From a virus, in the IMG/VR virus record IMGVR_UViG_3300009514_000064, positions 1 to 34,827 of that record: DNA of 34,827 bases; one strand, 5' to 3'. Below, in pieces: positions 5,214-34,827 of the stretch. A model generated the notes under the pieces. The model made no database searches. It saw nothing but the letters and a program-made list of their open reading frames with translations, and was not told the DNA's origin. A program made the translations under genes and the position numbers. Each line of letters begins with the position of its first letter. The first letter of the stretch is position 1.

Positions 5214-7006
5214 TGACTTTCATCAACAAAAAGCTTGGAAACGGATTTAGATTTAAAACTGCTGATTCTAGCTTAGATCAAGAACACTACTTTGGAGGAG
5301 CAAGGAAGAGTCTAATATTGGCTGCTCGTCCGAACTTGTTTTCAGACTCAATCATTCTCGAAAGAAACGAGGCTCCATTTGGATCTGGTTGCAAGGGTGT
5401 TTTCGTAAGGTCTACAAACGATTATTTTGCATCTTCCGATAGTGAAATGATGAGATCTATTGATTCTGGCCAAACTTGGATTCATATGACTTCTTCCACT
5501 AAAGTCGTGGGATTTGCTGTTACTGAAAATTATATTTGGACAGCATCAAGAGCTACTGGAGCGGCCACCAATCACTGGGTTGTCGCCAGGGCACATCTAT
5601 CTTCGGCACTAACGTCCTCAGACTTCGAAGTGGTCGATACGCTAGATTCAGGTTCCAATCCCAACGGTCATGTTGGCGTATTTACTATTGAGTCAATTAA
5701 GGCAGAATCTGATGATGTTGTCTACGTGGGTGGATATGCTATGTCAGGCGCTACAGGGACCACAGGACCGCTGTTAAGGAGAACGATAGACGGGACTAGC
5801 GGAACTCCCACTTGGACGACTGTGGACTATTCTCCGAGCACTGACGCCAATTTTACGAATGGTTCCGATACAATAACTGACATTAGTTTGACTGGAGCGA
5901 TAATTTATTGCGGTAGGTTTGATAGCGATTGGTTAGTAAGAAGTTCTAGCGATGGTTCTGTAGGATCTTTTGGCACCATTGACTTAGATGCGTCTCTGGA
6001 AATAGCCAATGCAATTTTAGTCACTGTTAGTGGGGCAATTTTTGTTGGAGGAAGCGACAATTCATCGCCAGAGATGGCTACGGTGAAGAAGGCTCACCTA
6101 TCAGCTACAGCCGTCTGGGATACGGTCGACTCTTATGTTGGTGTTGCGTCTGGAACCCTAAATGAGTGCGTAAATTTGGTAGAAAATACAGAAACTGGAG
6201 ATGTGTTCTCTGCCATGAGAACATCTGACGGAGAGACCAACACAAACTATAGATCCGTTACTATTCGTAAATCGGCAGACAGAGGAAGTAATTGGCATAC
6301 GTTCTATAGGTTGAATCCAGTAAGAGAATCTCCAGATGTATTTCAGGTGCAAGCAGATATGGACATGGTAGCTTCTGGGAACTTGTTTTTGGTTGGGTTT
6401 GGGGCTGGTGGGGCAGTCGCCACTAATCCAGAATTGGTCGTCCGCCGCATAGAAAAGTCTGATCAAATTGTATTTACCGCAAGTGTAGACAATACTGCAA
6501 CAGGTCAGTTTAGGTTTGAGGCAGAATTTCCTACAGAAATAAGAGATTCAAACAATAATCATGTCTTTAGAGATTCTGCTTTCGCAACTTCTGTATTTGG
6601 TATTAGTTCCAGTCAATTTCAAGAAAAGCCTTTGCCTGCGGACATATTCTTCAAGGTATCTGCGTCTGACGTTGTGTTTACGGGCAGCGAACTTTATGTA
6701 GGGTTTAAAGATGGAGTCAATCATCCTTCTTACAAGTCTCTCACGGAAGTTGGGACATTCTTCCCCTTATCTGATGGTGTGTTTGAGTATCGAGGCCGCT
6801 TATTGTTGAATCCTTCTTTTGCGCTCGACAATACGGAACCATCAATAAGAATTAGTTCTTCAATAGGTGTCCATAGATTGTTTGACTTTGAAATGGAGTT
6901 TCATCAACCTCTCACCGATGAAGGTGTGAGAATATTTAAAGAAATAGACAATCAAAATTTAGAATTCGAGTATGTTAATTTTGGATTACTTAAGGGCATA
7001 GAGTAA
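5213..7006 (+). CDS. Beta-propeller (BNR/Asp-box) structural protein A
   Basis: A 597-residue protein with sialidase-type Asp-boxes (S-x-D-x-G-x-x-W): SIDSGQTW at residues 82-89 and SADRGSNW at 354-361, plus degenerate copies. Between them runs a series of strands reading VVYVGGY, GAIFVGGS and LFLVGFG, as in a bladed propeller. Residues about 430-597 form a separate beta-rich C-terminal region. Asp-box propellers bind or cleave glycans; I see no sialidase Arg triad or other catalytic set, so a binding or spike role is more likely than an enzymatic one. The downstream gene is a second propeller of similar size. ATG overlaps the previous TAA. The stop is a tandem TAA-TAG. Confidence 0.65.
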   Translation: MTFINKKLGNGFRFKTADSSLDQEHYFGGARKSLILAARPNLFSDSIILERNEAPFGSGCKGVFVRSTNDYFASSDSEMMRSIDSGQTWIHMTSSTKVVGFAVTENYIWTASRATGAATNHWVVARAHLSSALTSSDFEVVDTLDSGSNPNGHVGVFTIESIKAESDDVVYVGGYAMSGATGTTGPLLRRTIDGTSGTPTWTTVDYSPSTDANFTNGSDTITDISLTGAIIYCGRFDSDWLVRSSSDGSVGSFGTIDLDASLEIANAILVTVSGAIFVGGSDNSSPEMATVKKAHLSATAVWDTVDSYVGVASGTLNECVNLVENTETGDVFSAMRTSDGETNTNYRSVTIRKSADRGSNWHTFYRLNPVRESPDVFQVQADMDMVASGNLFLVGFGAGGAVATNPELVVRRIEKSDQIVFTASVDNTATGQFRFEAEFPTEIRDSNNNHVFRDSAFATSVFGISSSQFQEKPLPADIFFKVSASDVVFTGSELYVGFKDGVNHPSYKSLTEVGTFFPLSDGVFEYRGRLLLNPSFALDNTEPSIRISSSIGVHRLFDFEMEFHQPLTDEGVRIFKEIDNQNLEFEYVNFGLLKGIE

Positions 7007-8919: not shown

Positions 8920-10944
8920 ATGACCAGAAGCAGAAAGAGAAATTTCAATACTTCCATTGGTTCGGTTGAATCACCAGGAAGACAAGTAACCAAACTAAAG
9001 CTAAACAAACAGCAGCTTCTTGACGAAGGGTTCGTAAGTGGTAGTTTGATTGCTGGTGGAGATCATACGTCACTCATATATGCTTCTGGCTCTCATTTGT
9101 TGCTGTCGTCTTCTGCGGGTTCATGGGTGGTTACGAGCGGAGCTTTTGCGGCTACTAATCGCATCTTGGTTGGAACCAGTGATCCTGGTGTTTTTGGGTC
9201 AGCGTATCAATTCCTTATAGATAGTCGTGAGCTAAATACCACGCCACGAATGGTATGTATTGCAGGCAGCTCATCGCTTGACATGGGACACATTGAAGGT
9301 CGTGACGAAACTGGCTCAAGACATTGGTTAGTGAATTTAGGAGACAGAAGTCAAAACAATAATTTTCAAATTTGGAGCGATACAGCCTCAGTTTATGTTC
9401 TTTCTGTGACTTCTACGAAAAGAGTCGGAATTGGAAATAATATCGATAGTCCTCAGAGTACGCTAGATGTTGATGGAAACTTAACAGTTGGAGATACATA
9501 CGCAGAAAATAATGCTGCCCCTACTGACGGGATGATTGTGGAGGGAAATGTAGGTATTGGTACAAATAGTCCAAACGAACGTATGGAGATTTCTCAAGGA
9601 GGCAATTATCAGTTACGTCTTGATAATCCCGATACAGGTGGCGGTTATTGGAATATTGCTCAAACGGACAATGCTTTTGCCGCAGGCGGGGGTAAACTTG
9701 TTTTTGTCCCCGACTCTACAACATCTACAAATGCGGTGTTTGTCATAGAAAATTCCAGCGGAGATGTTGGCATTGGAGTCCTTGCGCCTGCTGCTAAATT
9801 GGAAATAGAATCATCGACCTATCCAGTATCTAGGACGACAAGAACAAGCACGCAAACGACAGCTAGAAGAGCAGTTACGGCAATTCAACACAAAACATCG
9901 AACAATATGGGCGATGGATTTGGTGCCGTCATTGCTTTCGAAGCATCTGATAGTGGAGTTTCCAACTATACACTTGGTCAAATTTCATCAACTAGGAAAA
10001 ATGGAAGCGATACCTCTAGCGACATTATTTTTACAGTTAAGGATGCTGGAGTAACTGACGATGCAGTAGTAATAGACTACAATAGCAATGTTGGTATAGG
10101 AGATACCTCTCCGATTGCCAGGCTTCATGTTAGCAACGGAGATTCTGGAATAACATCGCTTGCTCTAGGTTCTGACGAACTCTTAGTTGAAAACTCTGGA
10201 GATGCAGGACTAACTATTGCCACACCAAATACTAGCGTTGGTAGGATTAGTTTTGGAGATCCTGACAACAATAATCCTGGAAGAATCGCCTATGATCATT
10301 CGATAGACGATATGTATCTTTATTCAGGAGATAGCATTCGAGTAACAATAGAAGGAAACACTGGAGACGTGGGTATAGGGACTACCAGTCCTGCTCAGAG
10401 GTTGGATGTGGAAGATGATACATCTGGGGGATATACAGCTAGATTTCAAAATGACGGAAACAATGCAGATAGGTATGGAATTGGGATTGCTGCTGGATTA
10501 GATGTTCCTTCTGTAACCGGAGATATTAGATGGATAGCTCTTGAAGATGGTAACGGAACAGATCAATCATATGTTCAGTTTTTATCGACATCGCCAAACG
10601 CTCAGTTTGCTGCAGCCTCAGACGAAAGACTTAAGAAAAATATATCTCCCACAAAGGTTGATGGGTTAGATATCATTAGAAAATTAGAACTCGTAGAGTT
10701 CGAATGGAAAGATTCGAAGCGTGGAAAGAAACAAGAAATCGGTTATATCGGCCAGCAAGTAAGAGAAGTTTACCCACCTATGGTTTCGAAAGCTTGGTCA
10801 AAAGACATTGAGGATGAAATTTTGCTTGTGGGTGATTCGTGTCTTGTTTCTGTTTTGGTCCGGGCCGTTCAGCAGCAACAGGAAAAAATAGAAGAAATGG
10901 AAAAAAAGATAAAGGAAATTAAAGATGCCAATATTATTAAGTGA
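8920..10944 (+). CDS. Tail fibre/spike with C-terminal S74 intramolecular chaperone
   Basis: A 674-residue fibre. Residues about 165-500 hold the repeat typical of such fibres, 'VGIG-x(2-3)-SP-x(3)-LDV', at about 167, 211, 283, 391 and 484. The C-terminus is a peptidase S74 (endosialidase chaperone) domain starting SDERLKKNI, followed by FEWK, EIGYIGQQVREVYP and a terminal coiled coil (QQQEKIEEMEKK). In the endosialidase family the Ser and Lys of S-D-x-R-L-K are the autocleavage dyad; here they are S567 and K572 with the same spacing. Cleavage before S567 would release a chaperone of about 108 residues after trimerisation. The gene's last 20 bases overlap the next gene. Likely the receptor-binding fibre. 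Confidence 0.85.
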   Translation: MTRSRKRNFNTSIGSVESPGRQVTKLKLNKQQLLDEGFVSGSLIAGGDHTSLIYASGSHLLLSSSAGSWVVTSGAFAATNRILVGTSDPGVFGSAYQFLIDSRELNTTPRMVCIAGSSSLDMGHIEGRDETGSRHWLVNLGDRSQNNNFQIWSDTASVYVLSVTSTKRVGIGNNIDSPQSTLDVDGNLTVGDTYAENNAAPTDGMIVEGNVGIGTNSPNERMEISQGGNYQLRLDNPDTGGGYWNIAQTDNAFAAGGGKLVFVPDSTTSTNAVFVIENSSGDVGIGVLAPAAKLEIESSTYPVSRTTRTSTQTTARRAVTAIQHKTSNNMGDGFGAVIAFEASDSGVSNYTLGQISSTRKNGSDTSSDIIFTVKDAGVTDDAVVIDYNSNVGIGDTSPIARLHVSNGDSGITSLALGSDELLVENSGDAGLTIATPNTSVGRISFGDPDNNNPGRIAYDHSIDDMYLYSGDSIRVTIEGNTGDVGIGTTSPAQRLDVEDDTSGGYTARFQNDGNNADRYGIGIAAGLDVPSVTGDIRWIALEDGNGTDQSYVQFLSTSPNAQFAAASDERLKKNISPTKVDGLDIIRKLELVEFEWKDSKRGKKQEIGYIGQQVREVYPPMVSKAWSKDIEDEILLVGDSCLVSVLVRAVQQQQEKIEEMEKKIKEIKDANIIK

Positions 10945-21464: not shown

Positions 21465-21495
21465 TTTTCTAAAAATAATTTTTTGTTTTGCAATG
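21462..21495 (+). repeat. 3' flank copy 2 of the duplicated gene pair
   Basis: TAATTTTCT, TTTTTTGTT and GCAATG recur after the second paralogue as they do after the first (20530-20562). Here the terminal ATG of GCAATG is the start codon of the resolvase gene at 21493, while in copy 1 the equivalent ATG is followed at once by TAG. No good Shine-Dalgarno sequence precedes the resolvase start, so this duplicated flank may have supplied its leader. Confidence 0.4.
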
Positions 21496-22026
21496 ATTTT
21501 TGGATTAGATGTTAGTACATCTTATGTTGGCTGGTGTCTTCTAGGAGAAGACGCTACAGTTATAGATATTGGACATATAGATTTGCATTTATGTAAAAAC
21601 TTTTATCATAAATGTGATAAAATTCAAAATTTTATTCATGAGTATTTTGTTCGTCGAAAGGGTGACGTAAAACAAATATGGGTAGAAGAGCCAGTAAAGA
21701 TGTACCAATCGAACGCATCAATGGCTCAAACAATCACTAAGCTTCAGCGATTCAACGCAGTTTGTTGCTGGATTTTGAGGAGTTATTTTGACATTGAGCC
21801 ACAATTTATTATGGCAACTTCGGCTCGCAAGAAAGCTGGAATCAAAATACCCAAAGGCACAAAAGGAAAAGAAACCAAAAAATATATCCTACAATACGTT
21901 CAAAGCCTGAAAGTAATCCCTGAAGAAAAATGGAACTACAAGAAGACCGGAACACCTAAAGATTGGTGTTTTGATCAAGCTGATGCATATGTAGTTGCCG
22001 TGTCGGGATTGAATAGTGAACAATAA
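21493..22026 (+). CDS. RuvC-like Holliday junction resolvase
   Basis: A 177-residue RNase H-fold nuclease of the RuvC family. D6 lies in the first strand (IFGLDVSTS), the second acid is E65 or E66 after a strand (IWVEEPV), and the C-terminal helix has D161 and D164 (FDQADAYVVAV). This is the D-E-D-D set used by RuvC to hold two metal ions and cut four-way junctions. A basic stretch at about 102-120 could contact DNA. It would resolve branched replicative DNA before packaging, the job done in T4 by the unrelated endonuclease VII (gp49). It overlaps the next gene by 11 bases and stands upstream of primase and SbcCD. No clear ribosome binding site precedes ATG 21493. Confidence 0.85.
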   Translation: MIFGLDVSTSYVGWCLLGEDATVIDIGHIDLHLCKNFYHKCDKIQNFIHEYFVRRKGDVKQIWVEEPVKMYQSNASMAQTITKLQRFNAVCCWILRSYFDIEPQFIMATSARKKAGIKIPKGTKGKETKKYILQYVQSLKVIPEEKWNYKKTGTPKDWCFDQADAYVVAVSGLNSEQ

Positions 22027-22219
22027 GATCGTAAAAGGTGATAATTTCTACATGCTTCCAGGAGATATGTTGGAAATCGATATAGATCGTGAACTCGATA
22101 AGATAATTCGTGGACAAAGCGACCAAAATGATATAGAATGTGAGTGTGGTTCTGATGCCGTATATAAGGGAAAAGCACCATCCCATTCTAGTTGGTGTCC
22201 TAAACACGAATCTTTATGA
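22016..22219 (+). CDS. Small zinc-knuckle-like protein
   Basis: A 67-residue protein starting with GTG inside the end of the resolvase gene and ending with an ATGA overlap into the primase gene. The C-terminus carries C42, C44, H57, C61 and H64 in the pattern C-x-C-G-x(n)-H-S-x-W-C-x-x-H, a likely single zinc-binding site. Small T4-like phage proteins with a similar 'CxCG...HSxWC' ending occur, with no function that I know of. The N-terminus is acidic (LEIDIDRELDK). An alternative ATG at 22052 with AAAGGTG upstream would shorten it by twelve residues and keep the zinc site. A nucleic-acid-binding or adaptor role beside primase is possible. Confidence 0.6.
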   Translation: MNNKIVKGDNFYMLPGDMLEIDIDRELDKIIRGQSDQNDIECECGSDAVYKGKAPSHSSWCPKHESL

Positions 22220-23166
22220 GTAATTATCGTAATAAACTCAGCTTTTTAGAAAATTTATTAGGTTCAGCTAATTTTAGCTCAGGAACTAATGAAGCTTTAT
22301 TTTCTTGTCCGTTTTGCAAACATCACAAAAAAAAGCTTTCTATCAATTTAGAGCTTGATCTCTGGCAGTGTTGGCCTTGCGGAAAAGCAGGGAAGAACTT
22401 AGGATTTTTAATAAGAAAAGTTGGATCATCAAGAGATGTAGATCTTTATGTTCAGAAGTATAAATCTAAGCATTCCAATTTTGTTGCCAACAAGCAGGAA
22501 GGAGAAGTATATAGACCATCATTGCCGGAAGAATTTGTTCCGCTAATTCATTGCAAAGACTCTTTCATGGGAAAAAAGATATACTCATGGTTGACTGGAA
22601 TAAGGAAGGTGGAAGAAGAAGACATCTTACGACACAAGATAGGCACAGCTATGTCTGGTCGGTTACAGGGGACCGTAATTATGCCATCGTTCGACTCTAA
22701 AGGTCTCCTCAACTTATATACGTCTAGGTTTCTTGATGGTGGAATTAGGAAGTACCACACACCTAGCTTTCCGAAGGGATATAAAAATAGTATTATTCTA
22801 AACGAATTAAATATTGATTGGGAGCAACCCGTAGTTATTGTTGAGGCATTCTTAGACATGATGAAGAGTGTACCTAATACAGTTCCGTTGTTTGGGAGTT
22901 CATTGAAGGAAGAGAGTTTATTATTTCAGACGATTGTTAGAAATAATTCTTCTGTGTTTTTAGCATTAGACGCCGACGCAAAAAGCAAGAGCAATAAAAT
23001 TGCAGAAGAGTTTATGAAATGGGACATTTCGGTGTATAATGTTGATATTGTTCCTTACGGAGATGTAGGCGAAATGTCTAAGAAAGAATTTACAAAGAGA
23101 TACGAATGTGCAGAATTGGTATCTCACCAAAGTGTGTTTCGTGATAAGTTGAGGAACTTATGTTGA
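22216..23166 (+). CDS. DnaG-type DNA primase
   Basis: A 316-residue primase. The N-terminal zinc site has C31 and C34 (CPFCKHHKKK) and C52 and C55 (CWPCGKAGKN), as in CHC2-type zinc ribbons that recognise priming sites. A Toprim fold follows, with the first acid E210 after a strand (PVVIVEAFLD) and the D-x-D pair D252/D254 (FLALDADAKS); these bind the catalytic metals. The overall size and layout match T4 gp61, which works with the gp41 helicase; no helicase is visible in this window. The start overlaps the preceding stop (ATGA). It is the middle gene of a resolvase-primase-SbcCD island. Confidence 0.85.
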   Translation: MSNYRNKLSFLENLLGSANFSSGTNEALFSCPFCKHHKKKLSINLELDLWQCWPCGKAGKNLGFLIRKVGSSRDVDLYVQKYKSKHSNFVANKQEGEVYRPSLPEEFVPLIHCKDSFMGKKIYSWLTGIRKVEEEDILRHKIGTAMSGRLQGTVIMPSFDSKGLLNLYTSRFLDGGIRKYHTPSFPKGYKNSIILNELNIDWEQPVVIVEAFLDMMKSVPNTVPLFGSSLKEESLLFQTIVRNNSSVFLALDADAKSKSNKIAEEFMKWDISVYNVDIVPYGDVGEMSKKEFTKRYECAELVSHQSVFRDKLRNLC

Positions 23167-23209: not shown

Positions 23210-26200
23210 ATGCTTAGAATTTCTCACTTAAGCGATACGCAAATGAGAAACTTTCAGCGTCATGCTGAATTTCGTGAATCATATAAAAACCTCTATAATT
23301 CCCTAAAGGATCATGAACCTGACGTTATAGTCATTGCAGGTGACATTGCTCATACAAAAACTCAAATCTCACCAGAGTTCGTTCAGCTTTGCTCTGAGTA
23401 TTTTACGAACTTAGCAAACATCGCTCCAACCGTGATAATCCCAGGAAATCATGATGGAAATCTTCAAAATTTATCTCGGCTAGATGCGCTCACTCCAGTT
23501 GTGTCTGCTTTGAATAATCCGAACATTCATTACTTTAAGGAGTCAGGAAATTATACAGTACCTGGCATAGGTGCTATTTTTTCTGTGTTTTCGTGCTTTG
23601 ATGACGAATCTGAGTGGCCCACTTCAAGACCTGAAACGAAGCTTCCTGTAATTGGATTATATCATGGATTTGTTCAAGGCGCAGTTCTTCAAAATGGTAT
23701 GACAATAGAAGACGATCCGCATAAGGTGGAGGACTTTTTAAAGATGGTGGACTATTTGATGCTTGGAGATATCCATCGTATGCAAATTTTAGACCACCAA
23801 TATCGTTCAGCGTATTGTGGCTCGTACCCACAACAAGGTTATGGAGAATCTACTACCAAGGGATATTTGATTTGGGAAATTGAGTCCAAAGATAAACATG
23901 ATGTTGATTTTGTAGAACTGCCAAACGTGTGTCCTTATTACACATTGGAGCTGAAGGATGATTTAAAGATCCCTGATTTACGCAAGGTAATGCAACAAAA
24001 AGGGCGAGTAAGAATTTTGTCCCGACAGCTTACTCCATTTGAAAAAGATAGTTTGCGAGAGAGGGTAGAAGAGCTATATGACCCTGTTGAAGTTAGATTT
24101 TTAGATAACGCTAGTGGACATAGGCAAGCGTTGAGAATAGAATCCGATGGAGCTACGATTGAAGATTTGAGTCAATTGGGAGTTCAAGAAAAACTCATAC
24201 GTCAATTTTTGAAGCCCTATAAACTGACGAAAGAGCTGGTAGATAAAGTATTGGAAATTAATCGTCAATATAACTCTGCAGCAAAGAAACAAGATGACAC
24301 ACTGAGGAACGTACAATATCGAATCAAGAAGCTACGTTATGATAATTTATGCAGTTACGGAGAAGGCAATGAAATTGATTTCTCTAAATATCGAGGTACT
24401 TTAGGTATCTTTGGAAAAAGTGGTGTTGGAAAAAGTACGCTTGCTGTTGATGCACCCAGTTATGCCATTTACAACAAAATATCCAAGAAAGTCACCAAGA
24501 ATGATTCTCTGATAAACGAAAATAAAGATTTTTGCGGAGCTAGCATAGAGGTTGAAGTTGACAATAAAACATTCAAAATCAAAAGAAATACAACCGTATA
24601 TACGAAATCAGGAAAAAGAAAGAATAAACCGGTCACTCAAGGTAAGACCGATGTGGATTTTAGGATCGTACATCCAGATGGAACTGAAGAAGATAGGAAC
24701 GGAGAAGAAAGAGGAGTAACGGATGGCGACGAGATTAGGAAGATTTTTGGTACTTACGAAGACTTTGTAGCTACCTCGACCGCTCCTCAATGGCAACTTC
24801 TCAACTTCCTTAACAAAGGAGCTACCGAAAGACAAAAGGTCATAGGACGCTATTTCGACATCGATATTTTCGATCGTAAGCACCGCCTTGCAAAGGACCA
24901 TCTAAAGGGCGTAAAAAGCAACCTCAAGCTTCTGGAGGGCACTAATTTCGAGGATGTCATTCAAAAGTACGAGGCAATTGCTACAAACATCTCTGAAGAA
25001 CTGAGAGAAATTAATGTTGCGCTTAAAGAGAGTTCAAAAAAGAAGCAAGAAAAAGAAAACCTCATTGACAAACTTCGGTCACAAGTTAAGTCCGTAGACG
25101 CCGAGCAAGGTCTGTCACTTAGCGTCATAAGCGCAGGAGCGAATGTCGCCAAGGCTGCATTAATTGATCAAGAGAATAAGCTGGAAAACATTCGGAACGA
25201 CATTGAGAAAAAAACAGCTAAGATTAAAAAAATCGAACACTACATGTCTATGCTTGAGATAGACAAACTAACAGCTTGTTTAGAATCATTTAGAGAAAAT
25301 CAAGCTAAACTATCAAAGATTCAAACCGAAAAGAATCTAACAATTAGTCAGCTTGAGCAAGCTAACACTAAACTAAAGGACCTTGATAAATACGTCTGCA
25401 TCAAAAACTCGGATTGCTGCATGTTAGAGGAAATAAATAAAGCAAAGTCTCACAAAGAACTTGTTCAAGAAAAGCATGACAAGTTAAAGGACCTTGAGGA
25501 TGCACTAAGCGAAAAAGATGTCAACATCGAAGAGATACAAAAGAAAATAAACCTTTACGAACGGAGTGAACGTGAGTTGTTGGTAGAAAAACCCGCCCTT
25601 ACCCATATCCAGGAGAAACTCGAAACAGAGACAAACTACATACCCATGTTAAAAGACTCCGTTGAAGAGTGGAATAAAAAGCGAGAAATATTCACTAATC
25701 ATGAAAATCAGCTCAAAAAAAACGAGGAGTTGGAAAATCAAATTATTGAAAAAAAGAGAGAAAAAAACATCTTAGAAAAAGGAATCGCAAGCCTCAACGA
25801 TCAAGTTGTGAAGTTAACTGGAGAGAAGTCTTCAGCAGAAGCCTTTCTAGAAAAAGGCAAAGAAAATAAAAAACAGTATGACGACTTGCGAGCTAAATAC
25901 GAAGCATATGACTACTTTATTCGAATCATGGGCAAGGACGGCCTTTCAAAAACTATCATCGCAAATAACCTTGAGATCATAAATAAACAGATTAAAAACA
26001 TTCTCTCTAGTGCAGTAGATTTTAGCGTCGAGTTTTCCAATGATGGTAAAGAGATTTATTTCAAGAGCCCCAAGAGCCCAAAGAGAGAAATAGAACTTTG
26101 TAGCGGCATGGAAAATACGATAGCCGCTCTTTCGATTAGAGCTGCTTTGGTAAGTGTAACTACTTTGCCAAAGTCTAATCTCTTTGTTTTAGATGAAGTT

Positions 26201-26374
26201 TTTGGTGCTTTGGACTCGGAATATATGGATGCGGCTGTAAAGATTTTGGATTATTTAAAACTATTGTTTGACACCGTTATAGTAATTACTCACACAGATG
26301 TCTTGAAGGATGTCGTAGATCATGTCATTGAGATTCAGCGAGACGAAAGAGGATATTCTATAATTTGCGAGTAA
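23210..26374 (+). CDS. Fused SbcD-SbcC (Mre11-Rad50, gp47-gp46-like) recombination nuclease
   Basis: One 1054-residue polypeptide holds both subunits of an SbcCD complex. Residues 1-350 are the Mre11/SbcD phosphoesterase: HLSDTQ (D9), GDIAH (D45), GNHD (N80-D82), YHGF (H152) and GDIH (D187, H189) are the metal-binding motifs. From about 372 the SbcC/Rad50 ATPase begins: LRYDNLCSYGE, Walker A GKSGVGKST (402-410), two coiled-coil arms (about 580-890) meeting at a cysteine-bearing turn (C730, C736, C737), signature-like LCSGMENTIA (about 963-972), Walker B NLFVLDEVFGALD (990-1002) and the H-loop ITHTD. T4 encodes these as separate genes 47 and 46. The complex resects ends for recombination-dependent replication and host DNA breakdown. 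No stop or frameshift separates the halves. Confidence 0.9.
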   Translation: MLRISHLSDTQMRNFQRHAEFRESYKNLYNSLKDHEPDVIVIAGDIAHTKTQISPEFVQLCSEYFTNLANIAPTVIIPGNHDGNLQNLSRLDALTPVVSALNNPNIHYFKESGNYTVPGIGAIFSVFSCFDDESEWPTSRPETKLPVIGLYHGFVQGAVLQNGMTIEDDPHKVEDFLKMVDYLMLGDIHRMQILDHQYRSAYCGSYPQQGYGESTTKGYLIWEIESKDKHDVDFVELPNVCPYYTLELKDDLKIPDLRKVMQQKGRVRILSRQLTPFEKDSLRERVEELYDPVEVRFLDNASGHRQALRIESDGATIEDLSQLGVQEKLIRQFLKPYKLTKELVDKVLEINRQYNSAAKKQDDTLRNVQYRIKKLRYDNLCSYGEGNEIDFSKYRGTLGIFGKSGVGKSTLAVDAPSYAIYNKISKKVTKNDSLINENKDFCGASIEVEVDNKTFKIKRNTTVYTKSGKRKNKPVTQGKTDVDFRIVHPDGTEEDRNGEERGVTDGDEIRKIFGTYEDFVATSTAPQWQLLNFLNKGATERQKVIGRYFDIDIFDRKHRLAKDHLKGVKSNLKLLEGTNFEDVIQKYEAIATNISEELREINVALKESSKKKQEKENLIDKLRSQVKSVDAEQGLSLSVISAGANVAKAALIDQENKLENIRNDIEKKTAKIKKIEHYMSMLEIDKLTACLESFRENQAKLSKIQTEKNLTISQLEQANTKLKDLDKYVCIKNSDCCMLEEINKAKSHKELVQEKHDKLKDLEDALSEKDVNIEEIQKKINLYERSERELLVEKPALTHIQEKLETETNYIPMLKDSVEEWNKKREIFTNHENQLKKNEELENQIIEKKREKNILEKGIASLNDQVVKLTGEKSSAEAFLEKGKENKKQYDDLRAKYEAYDYFIRIMGKDGLSKTIIANNLEIINKQIKNILSSAVDFSVEFSNDGKEIYFKSPKSPKREIELCSGMENTIAALSIRAALVSVTTLPKSNLFVLDEVFGALDSEYMDAAVKILDYLKLLFDTVIVITHTDVLKDVVDHVIEIQRDERGYSIICE

Positions 26375-34275: not shown

Positions 34276-34279
34276 TACA

Positions 34280-34827
34280 ATGAGCAAGCTTTTGCGTGAA
34301 TATCATGGTCTTGTCTACAGTAGAGACACTATAAAAGAAGCCAAAGAGAAGAAAGAGCCAGTTGTCGTAAAGGCGCTTCTTCAGCGTGCGGACGCCAGAA
34401 ATCAAAATGGCAGAATTTATCCTGAAGAAATCCTTGTTCGTGAAGTAGAAAACTATAAAAAAGCGATTGAAGAAGGAAGAGCCACGGGCGAACTAGATCA
34501 TCCAGAAAGCTCTGTAGTTAATCTGTCCAACATTTCTCATTGTTTGCGTGAAATTTGGTGGGAAGGAAATGATGTCTTAGGGATGGTAGAGATTTTGCCA
34601 ACTCCAAAAGGCAAGATTGCGCTAGACCTTATGGGCGCCGGTATTAAGCTGGGCATCTCTAGTCGTGGAGTTGGTGAAACTCGAAAAAATGAAACTGGAG
34701 ATGATGTCGTTGAAGAAGATTTTATGTTGGTCTGTTCTAGCTATGGGTGGTGGTTTCTGTGCTTATCAAGAGTTCTGGTTCACATAACCTACAAAAAAAG
34801 ATATTTTTTCCCTAAACTTTTTGTCTC
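34280..34827 (+). CDS. Prohead core protease (T4 gp21-like), 3' partial and possibly disrupted
   Basis: The first 152 residues are typical of T4-type prohead proteases: RADARNQNGRIYPEEIL (about 36-52), the histidine motif GELDHP (H74), then ISHCLREIWWEG and the nucleophile motif GIKLGISSRGVG (S127 or S128), which with an acid forms the serine-type site. The enzyme matures the prohead by cutting core and capsid proteins, then itself. From about residue 153 (base 34736) the sequence (SSYGWWFLCLSRVLVHITYK) no longer resembles the family, which should continue with an 'FD-V-S-x-P-S' type stretch after LVC. The frame stays open to the window edge. A sequencing error, a chimera or an inserted element is likely. 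Confidence 0.8.
   Translation, partial: MSKLLREYHGLVYSRDTIKEAKEKKEPVVVKALLQRADARNQNGRIYPEEILVREVENYKKAIEEGRATGELDHPESSVVNLSNISHCLREIWWEGNDVLGMVEILPTPKGKIALDLMGAGIKLGISSRGVGETRKNETGDDVVEEDFMLVCSSYGWWFLCLSRVLVHITYKKRYFFPKLFV

Follow-up and report, generated by a model that had tools for sequence, protein, structure and literature searches.

A probable single-chain Mre11-Rad50 nuclease encoded by a tailed-phage genome fragment, with relatives in aquatic phages

The window, a stretch of viral DNA of 34,827 nucleotides, carries a gene in which an N-terminal Mre11 (SbcD) nuclease half and a C-terminal Rad50 (SbcC) ATPase half lie within one open frame. With a probability of about 0.88, we interpret its product as a tailed-phage nuclease in which Mre11 and Rad50 (SbcD and SbcC) form a single chain and which would process DNA ends in recombination and replication. 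In aquatic tailed phages, the fused form probably works as a single-chain Mre11-Rad50; it is widespread and conserved there rather than a curiosity of one genome, and a chain of ~1,050 amino acids holding the whole machine is handy for structural work.

Composition of the fused chain

At the composition of the window, random occurrence of 1,054 open codons was estimated at ~7e-35. Pfam Metallophos (PF00149) matched the N-terminal part of the protein (E 1e-9), and phrog_77, an SbcC-like phage family, matched residues 339 to 1050 (E 1e-53); at the C-terminus, the match to SbcC_Walker_B (E 7e-4) fell under the Pfam curated cut-off. A weaker match was obtained with phrog_35725, a family of 1,376 positions named metallo-phosphoesterase, over its coiled-coil and ATPase end. 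The length of this family and the part matched suggest that PHROGs may already hold a family of the fused protein. No further separate SbcC or SbcD was found in the 34,827-nt window. These matches at both ends bear out the sequence-only reading, which had placed both halves in one uninterrupted frame of 1,054 residues; its statement that T4 and bacteria keep the halves apart held for T4, E. coli, and most of the matching phages.

A profile scan of IMG/VR returned at least 591 related stretches, of which the best 80 each matched nearly the full query, whereas a scan of viral contigs with the single sequence returned 0 relatives, which marks a limit of the patterns. Of the best 80, 79 contigs were translated and one (L023), cut at the contig end, was excluded. 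All 79 contigs, which are independent and come from separate metagenomes, encoded the fusion in a single frame of 1,004 to 1,103 amino acids ending in a stop, so the count of fused homologues that had been called for stands at 79 of 79. The Microcystis phage Mel-JY01 likewise encodes a fusion of 1,066 amino acids in one frame.

An AlphaFold2 model built from an alignment of 57 rows had a mean pLDDT of 84 and a pTM of 0.54; the length of the coiled coil accounts for the moderate pTM. In the model, the phosphoesterase core is followed by a capping domain (up to residue 299), a helix pair, a short linker, and the ATPase halves around the coiled coil (Table 1). In a viral fold library, the best matches were fused or fusion-length proteins, including those of Tupanvirus, Harvfovirus, and phages pT24 and PTm1, with fusions of Mimivirus kin and Tenacibaculum phages at the top. 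A 1,009-amino-acid "recombination exonuclease" of Listeria phage LMTA-57 (A0A068CB47), also of fusion length, ranked 13th in this search.

Table 1. Coordinates of the fused gene, its parts, and its upstream neighbors in the window
Feature	Position	Strand	Basis
Possible RuvC-like nuclease	21493..22026	+	Found in 18/104 loci, nearer relatives; no Pfam match; name from reading the sequence
Primase-like protein (zinc ribbon, phrog_47), directly upstream of the fusion	22216..23166	+	PHROG match; conserved neighbor
Fused Mre11(SbcD)-Rad50(SbcC) gene	23210..26374	+	ATG to stop, 1,054 aa, single frame; likewise in 79/79 related contigs
Metallophosphoesterase core, residues 1-240	23210..23929	+	PF00149; SbcD structure alignment over residues 1-299; boundary at 240 approximate
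Motif I, D9-T10-Q11 (usual D-x-H)	23234..23242	+	Aligned fused proteins
Capping domain, residues 243-299	23936..24106	+	Predicted strands and helix; alignment with SbcD structures 7dog and 4lty extends up to residue 299
Helices 323-337 and 341-360, likely Rad50-binding helix-loop-helix	24176..24289	+	Predicted structure; role from position and Mre11 anatomy (PMC3175470)
Linker, residues 361-368, from nuclease half to first Rad50 strand	24290..24313	+	Predicted structure; Rad50 alignments start at model residue 368-370
Rad50 ATPase N-lobe, residues 369-551, Walker A 402-409	24314..24862	+	Predicted structure, structure alignment, conserved motifs
Antiparallel coiled coil, residues 552-933	24863..26008	+	Predicted helices
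Apex with wide hook C730-x5-C736-C737, no CxxC	25388..25420	+	Alignment of relatives
Rad50 ATPase C-lobe: signature 963-968, Walker B 991-996, D-loop 1001-1002, H1028	26009..26371	+	Sequence, model, alignment

The nuclease half had been described as short of much of the usual capping and Rad50-binding extension. This description did not hold, and a truncated capping domain was rejected on the model, the lengths, and the alignment to SbcD. The half comprises ~367 amino acids before the ATPase, compared with 339 for the whole of T4 gp47 and 400 for E. coli SbcD. The SbcD nuclease and capping structure 7dog aligned with model residues 1 to 299 (VIA-align; Z 24.5, rmsd 3.4, 277 aligned), which places a capping domain between the halves, and by its position the helix pair at residues 323 to 360 is likely the Rad50-binding helix-loop-helix.

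In the metal site, D-x-H...GD...GNHD...H...xxH, every position is present in the window protein except the motif I histidine, which is Gln, and the equivalent of H206 is Asp (D187). D9, D45, H48, N80, H81, D82, H152, D187, and H189 were invariant in the 57 aligned fused proteins. Thus, the motif residues listed by the sequence-only reading (D9, D45, N80-D82, H152, D187/H189) are all in place, but its claim that the motifs are complete passed over the His-to-Gln change at residue 11. The third residue of motif I was His in 51 and Gln in 6 of the 57 aligned rows, the window included; in locus L085, motif I reads HISDIH. Gln at this position could reduce or alter nuclease activity. A degenerate nuclease half, in a protein that serves mainly as an ATP-driven DNA tether, could also be read from this Gln, yet we consider it improbable: the remaining metal and catalytic residues, H81 among them, do not vary in the 57 proteins, and D-x-Q recurs in 6 of the 79 relatives taken from the best 80 of at least 591 (L028, L034, L036, L039, L053, and L071) with the rest of the site kept, which looks like substitution rather than decay. 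The distribution of His and Gln needs two changes on the tree, which also speaks against decay.

The Walker A, signature, Walker B, and D-loop motifs of a Rad50 ATPase are all present in the C-terminal half. Walker A reads G402-KSGV-G407-K408-S409, the signature is S965-G-M-E968, Walker B ends in D995-E996, and the D-loop and H-loop residues are D1002 and H1028. G407, K408, G966, E968, D995, E996, D1002, and H1028 were invariant in the 57 fused proteins, in agreement with the earlier assignment of SMC-type ATPase motifs to this frame. SbcCD/Rad50 heads aligned with the model from residue 368-370 to residue 1054; with 7yzo_D, 350 residues were aligned (VIA-align; Z 29.9, rmsd 3.4).

Proposed function, neighboring genes, and the junction

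We propose that two chains would pair through their ATPase heads, nuclease domains, and coiled-coil tip to form a covalent (MR)2 complex, its 2:2 content being like that of the canonical one. By binding and hydrolyzing ATP, the heads would gate the nuclease activity, and the complex would resect or open DNA ends and hairpins and tether ends for recombination-dependent replication and repair, in the manner of T4 gp46/gp47. That a covalent complex fixes the two halves at 1:1 is a fair deduction; the canonical M2R2 complex, however, is already 1:1. We found no experiments on any phage member of the fused proteins.

A search of 104 loci detected the primase-like gene in 90, each time on the same strand as the fusion and upstream of it. 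In the five loci L009 to L013, the order of the RuvC-like gene, primase-like gene, fusion, terminase, and portal was largely kept within contig reach; L009 is the nearest relative among the matches listed, at 42% (tblastn). A replication role is favored because this conserved neighbor is primase-like. According to their annotation, T4 gp46/gp47 are required not just for recombination but for the degradation of host DNA as well, which lends something to the view that the fused protein is an anti-defense or host-DNA-degrading factor rather than a replication or recombination protein; given the primase-like neighbor we regard that view as quite improbable, although the two roles are not exclusive.

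That the fusion is an artefact, produced by a false assembly join or by an overlooked stop or frameshift separating two neighboring genes, can be given almost no weight and is strongly contradicted. In E. coli and Vibrio phage D239, sbcD and sbcC share a 4-base overlap, so that one small error could join them, and the window is a 34.8-kb metagenomic fragment; yet fusions of similar length occur in isolate phage Mel-JY01 and in 79 of 79 relatives (from the best 80 of at least 591), all of which read through in one frame, and the residues flanking the junction align without a break on either side. The stop or frameshift at 24280-24350 contemplated by the sequence-only reading thus has no support.

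The cysteine hook at the coiled-coil apex

CXXC is the highly conserved hook motif of Rad50 (PMC9569753). The window protein has no CxxC and carries C730-x5-C736-C737 instead, an unusual hook missing from the earlier survey of motifs; its membership in the Rad50/SbcC family rests on the ATPase heads, not on the hook. Across the 79 relatives (of the best 80 of at least 591), the apex held CxxC in 65, C-G-x(3-6)-C in 12, and other spacings in 2 (L009 and L056), so that 14, like the window, are without CxxC. C736 was invariant in the 57 aligned rows, and C730 was common to the wide-hook rows only. CxxC was present in seven of seven separate SbcC/Rad50 proteins compared (T4, P-SSM2, Staphylococcus phage ESa1, CampHawk, Bacillus phage 043JT007, Vibrio phage D239, and E. 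coli) and in five of five fusions of the Tenacibaculum-PAU-LR756501 group. A single change accounts for the wide hook on the tree, from which the coiled coil was left out.

We tentatively suggest that a subclade of the phage fusions swapped CxxC for cysteines set further apart, in most cases P-C-G-x(3-6)-C and here C-x5-CC; this would alter how the two coiled-coil tips join, and the swap perhaps accompanied the move to a single chain. We lean somewhat against this full scenario. The variant hook may bind zinc. A limited search of the literature at title and abstract level recognized no non-CxxC or wide-form Rad50 hooks. What a zinc hook requires could be tested in the wide-hook subclade, and the wide hook is the part most worth following.

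Relation to known fusions, tree, and wider distribution

The type of fusion is not novel; it was described in 2011, when Yoshida, Claverie, and Ogata reported that Mimivirus R555 is an Mre11-Rad50 fusion and identified twelve more, including those of Bacillus phage 0305phi8-36, plasmids, bacteria, and eukaryotes (PMC3175470). In these fusions His206 is replaced by Asp, and the capping and helix-loop-helix regions are retained in most; the short distance from the C-terminus of one half to the N-terminus of the other was considered favorable to fusion (PMC3175470). Viral metagenomes from aquatic environments were rich in R555 homologues, which lay on scaffolds carrying phage primases; the authors argued that many of them may be phage genes, and they confirmed the full fusion in few long environmental sequences only (PMC3175470). 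The window protein fits this description and is another example of the type, sharing the nuclease-then-ATPase chain, the Asp for His206 (here D187), the capping and helix-loop-helix regions, and the association with viral metagenomes and phage primases. By comparison with its published description, R555 differs in length (1,351 versus 1,054 amino acids), and the window protein has the C-x5-CC hook and the D-x-Q motif I. The 79 full-length contigs extend and confirm the conclusion of 2011, which had been drawn from short reads of metagenomes.

The Mel-JY01 fusion (WWT39521.1) shares 28.5% identity over 99% of the query and has a primase-like gene just upstream; in contrast to the window protein, it has a canonical D-x-H motif I and a CxxC hook. 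T4 gp47/gp46 and E. coli SbcD/SbcC have the same domains and motifs but are encoded by two separate genes and bear CxxC. Tenacibaculum phages pT24 and PTm1, Chryseobacterium phage MA9V-1, Sphingomonas phage PAU (gp288), and huge phage LR756501 also encode the nuclease and ATPase in a single chain (1,202 to 1,326 amino acids); these proteins, annotated only as metallo-phosphoesterase or DNA repair, differ from that of the window in their CxxC hook and their separate place on the tree. The tree contained three groups, each lying to one side of a branch: the fused group of the window (95/97), the Tenacibaculum-PAU-LR756501 fused group (100/100), and the separate pairs (100/99). Fused versus separate organization needs one change on this tree, which is unrooted and in which two separate rows are long. 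A single origin of the fusion is possible and compatible with this tree; the wider sampling of 2011 argued for repeated fusion (PMC3175470).

A genome scan for cellular fusions yielded 17 loci, nearly all on short MAG contigs of viral look. One candidate lay in a WOR-3 chromosome (L092, CP070664.1), with a primase-like gene beside it and runs of N adjoining. We rejected it as evidence for a cellular fusion, and the stretch may be misplaced or masked phage DNA.

Several further features were observed in the phage genomes. Huge phage LR756508.1 has a gene related to the fusion (L004:4944-9169) that is split between GDIHKRQ and SGSLIQQN by an open reading frame of 305 amino acids (5665-6582) with a TnsA-like nuclease match; because of this match, the open reading frame is probably a homing-type insertion. 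Rfam returned no group I or group II intron match in the split gene. A few genes upstream, LR756508.1 carries a TnpB-like gene (L004:1298-2515) with OrfB_IS605 and Cas12f1-like_TNB matches. At the right end of the window (34276-34827), a prohead-protease-like frame, judged by eye, is lost near the contig end, likely through an end-of-contig error. Positions 8920-10944 of the window encode a tail-fibre-like protein, the C-terminus of which, also by eye, resembles an endosialidase-type intramolecular chaperone.
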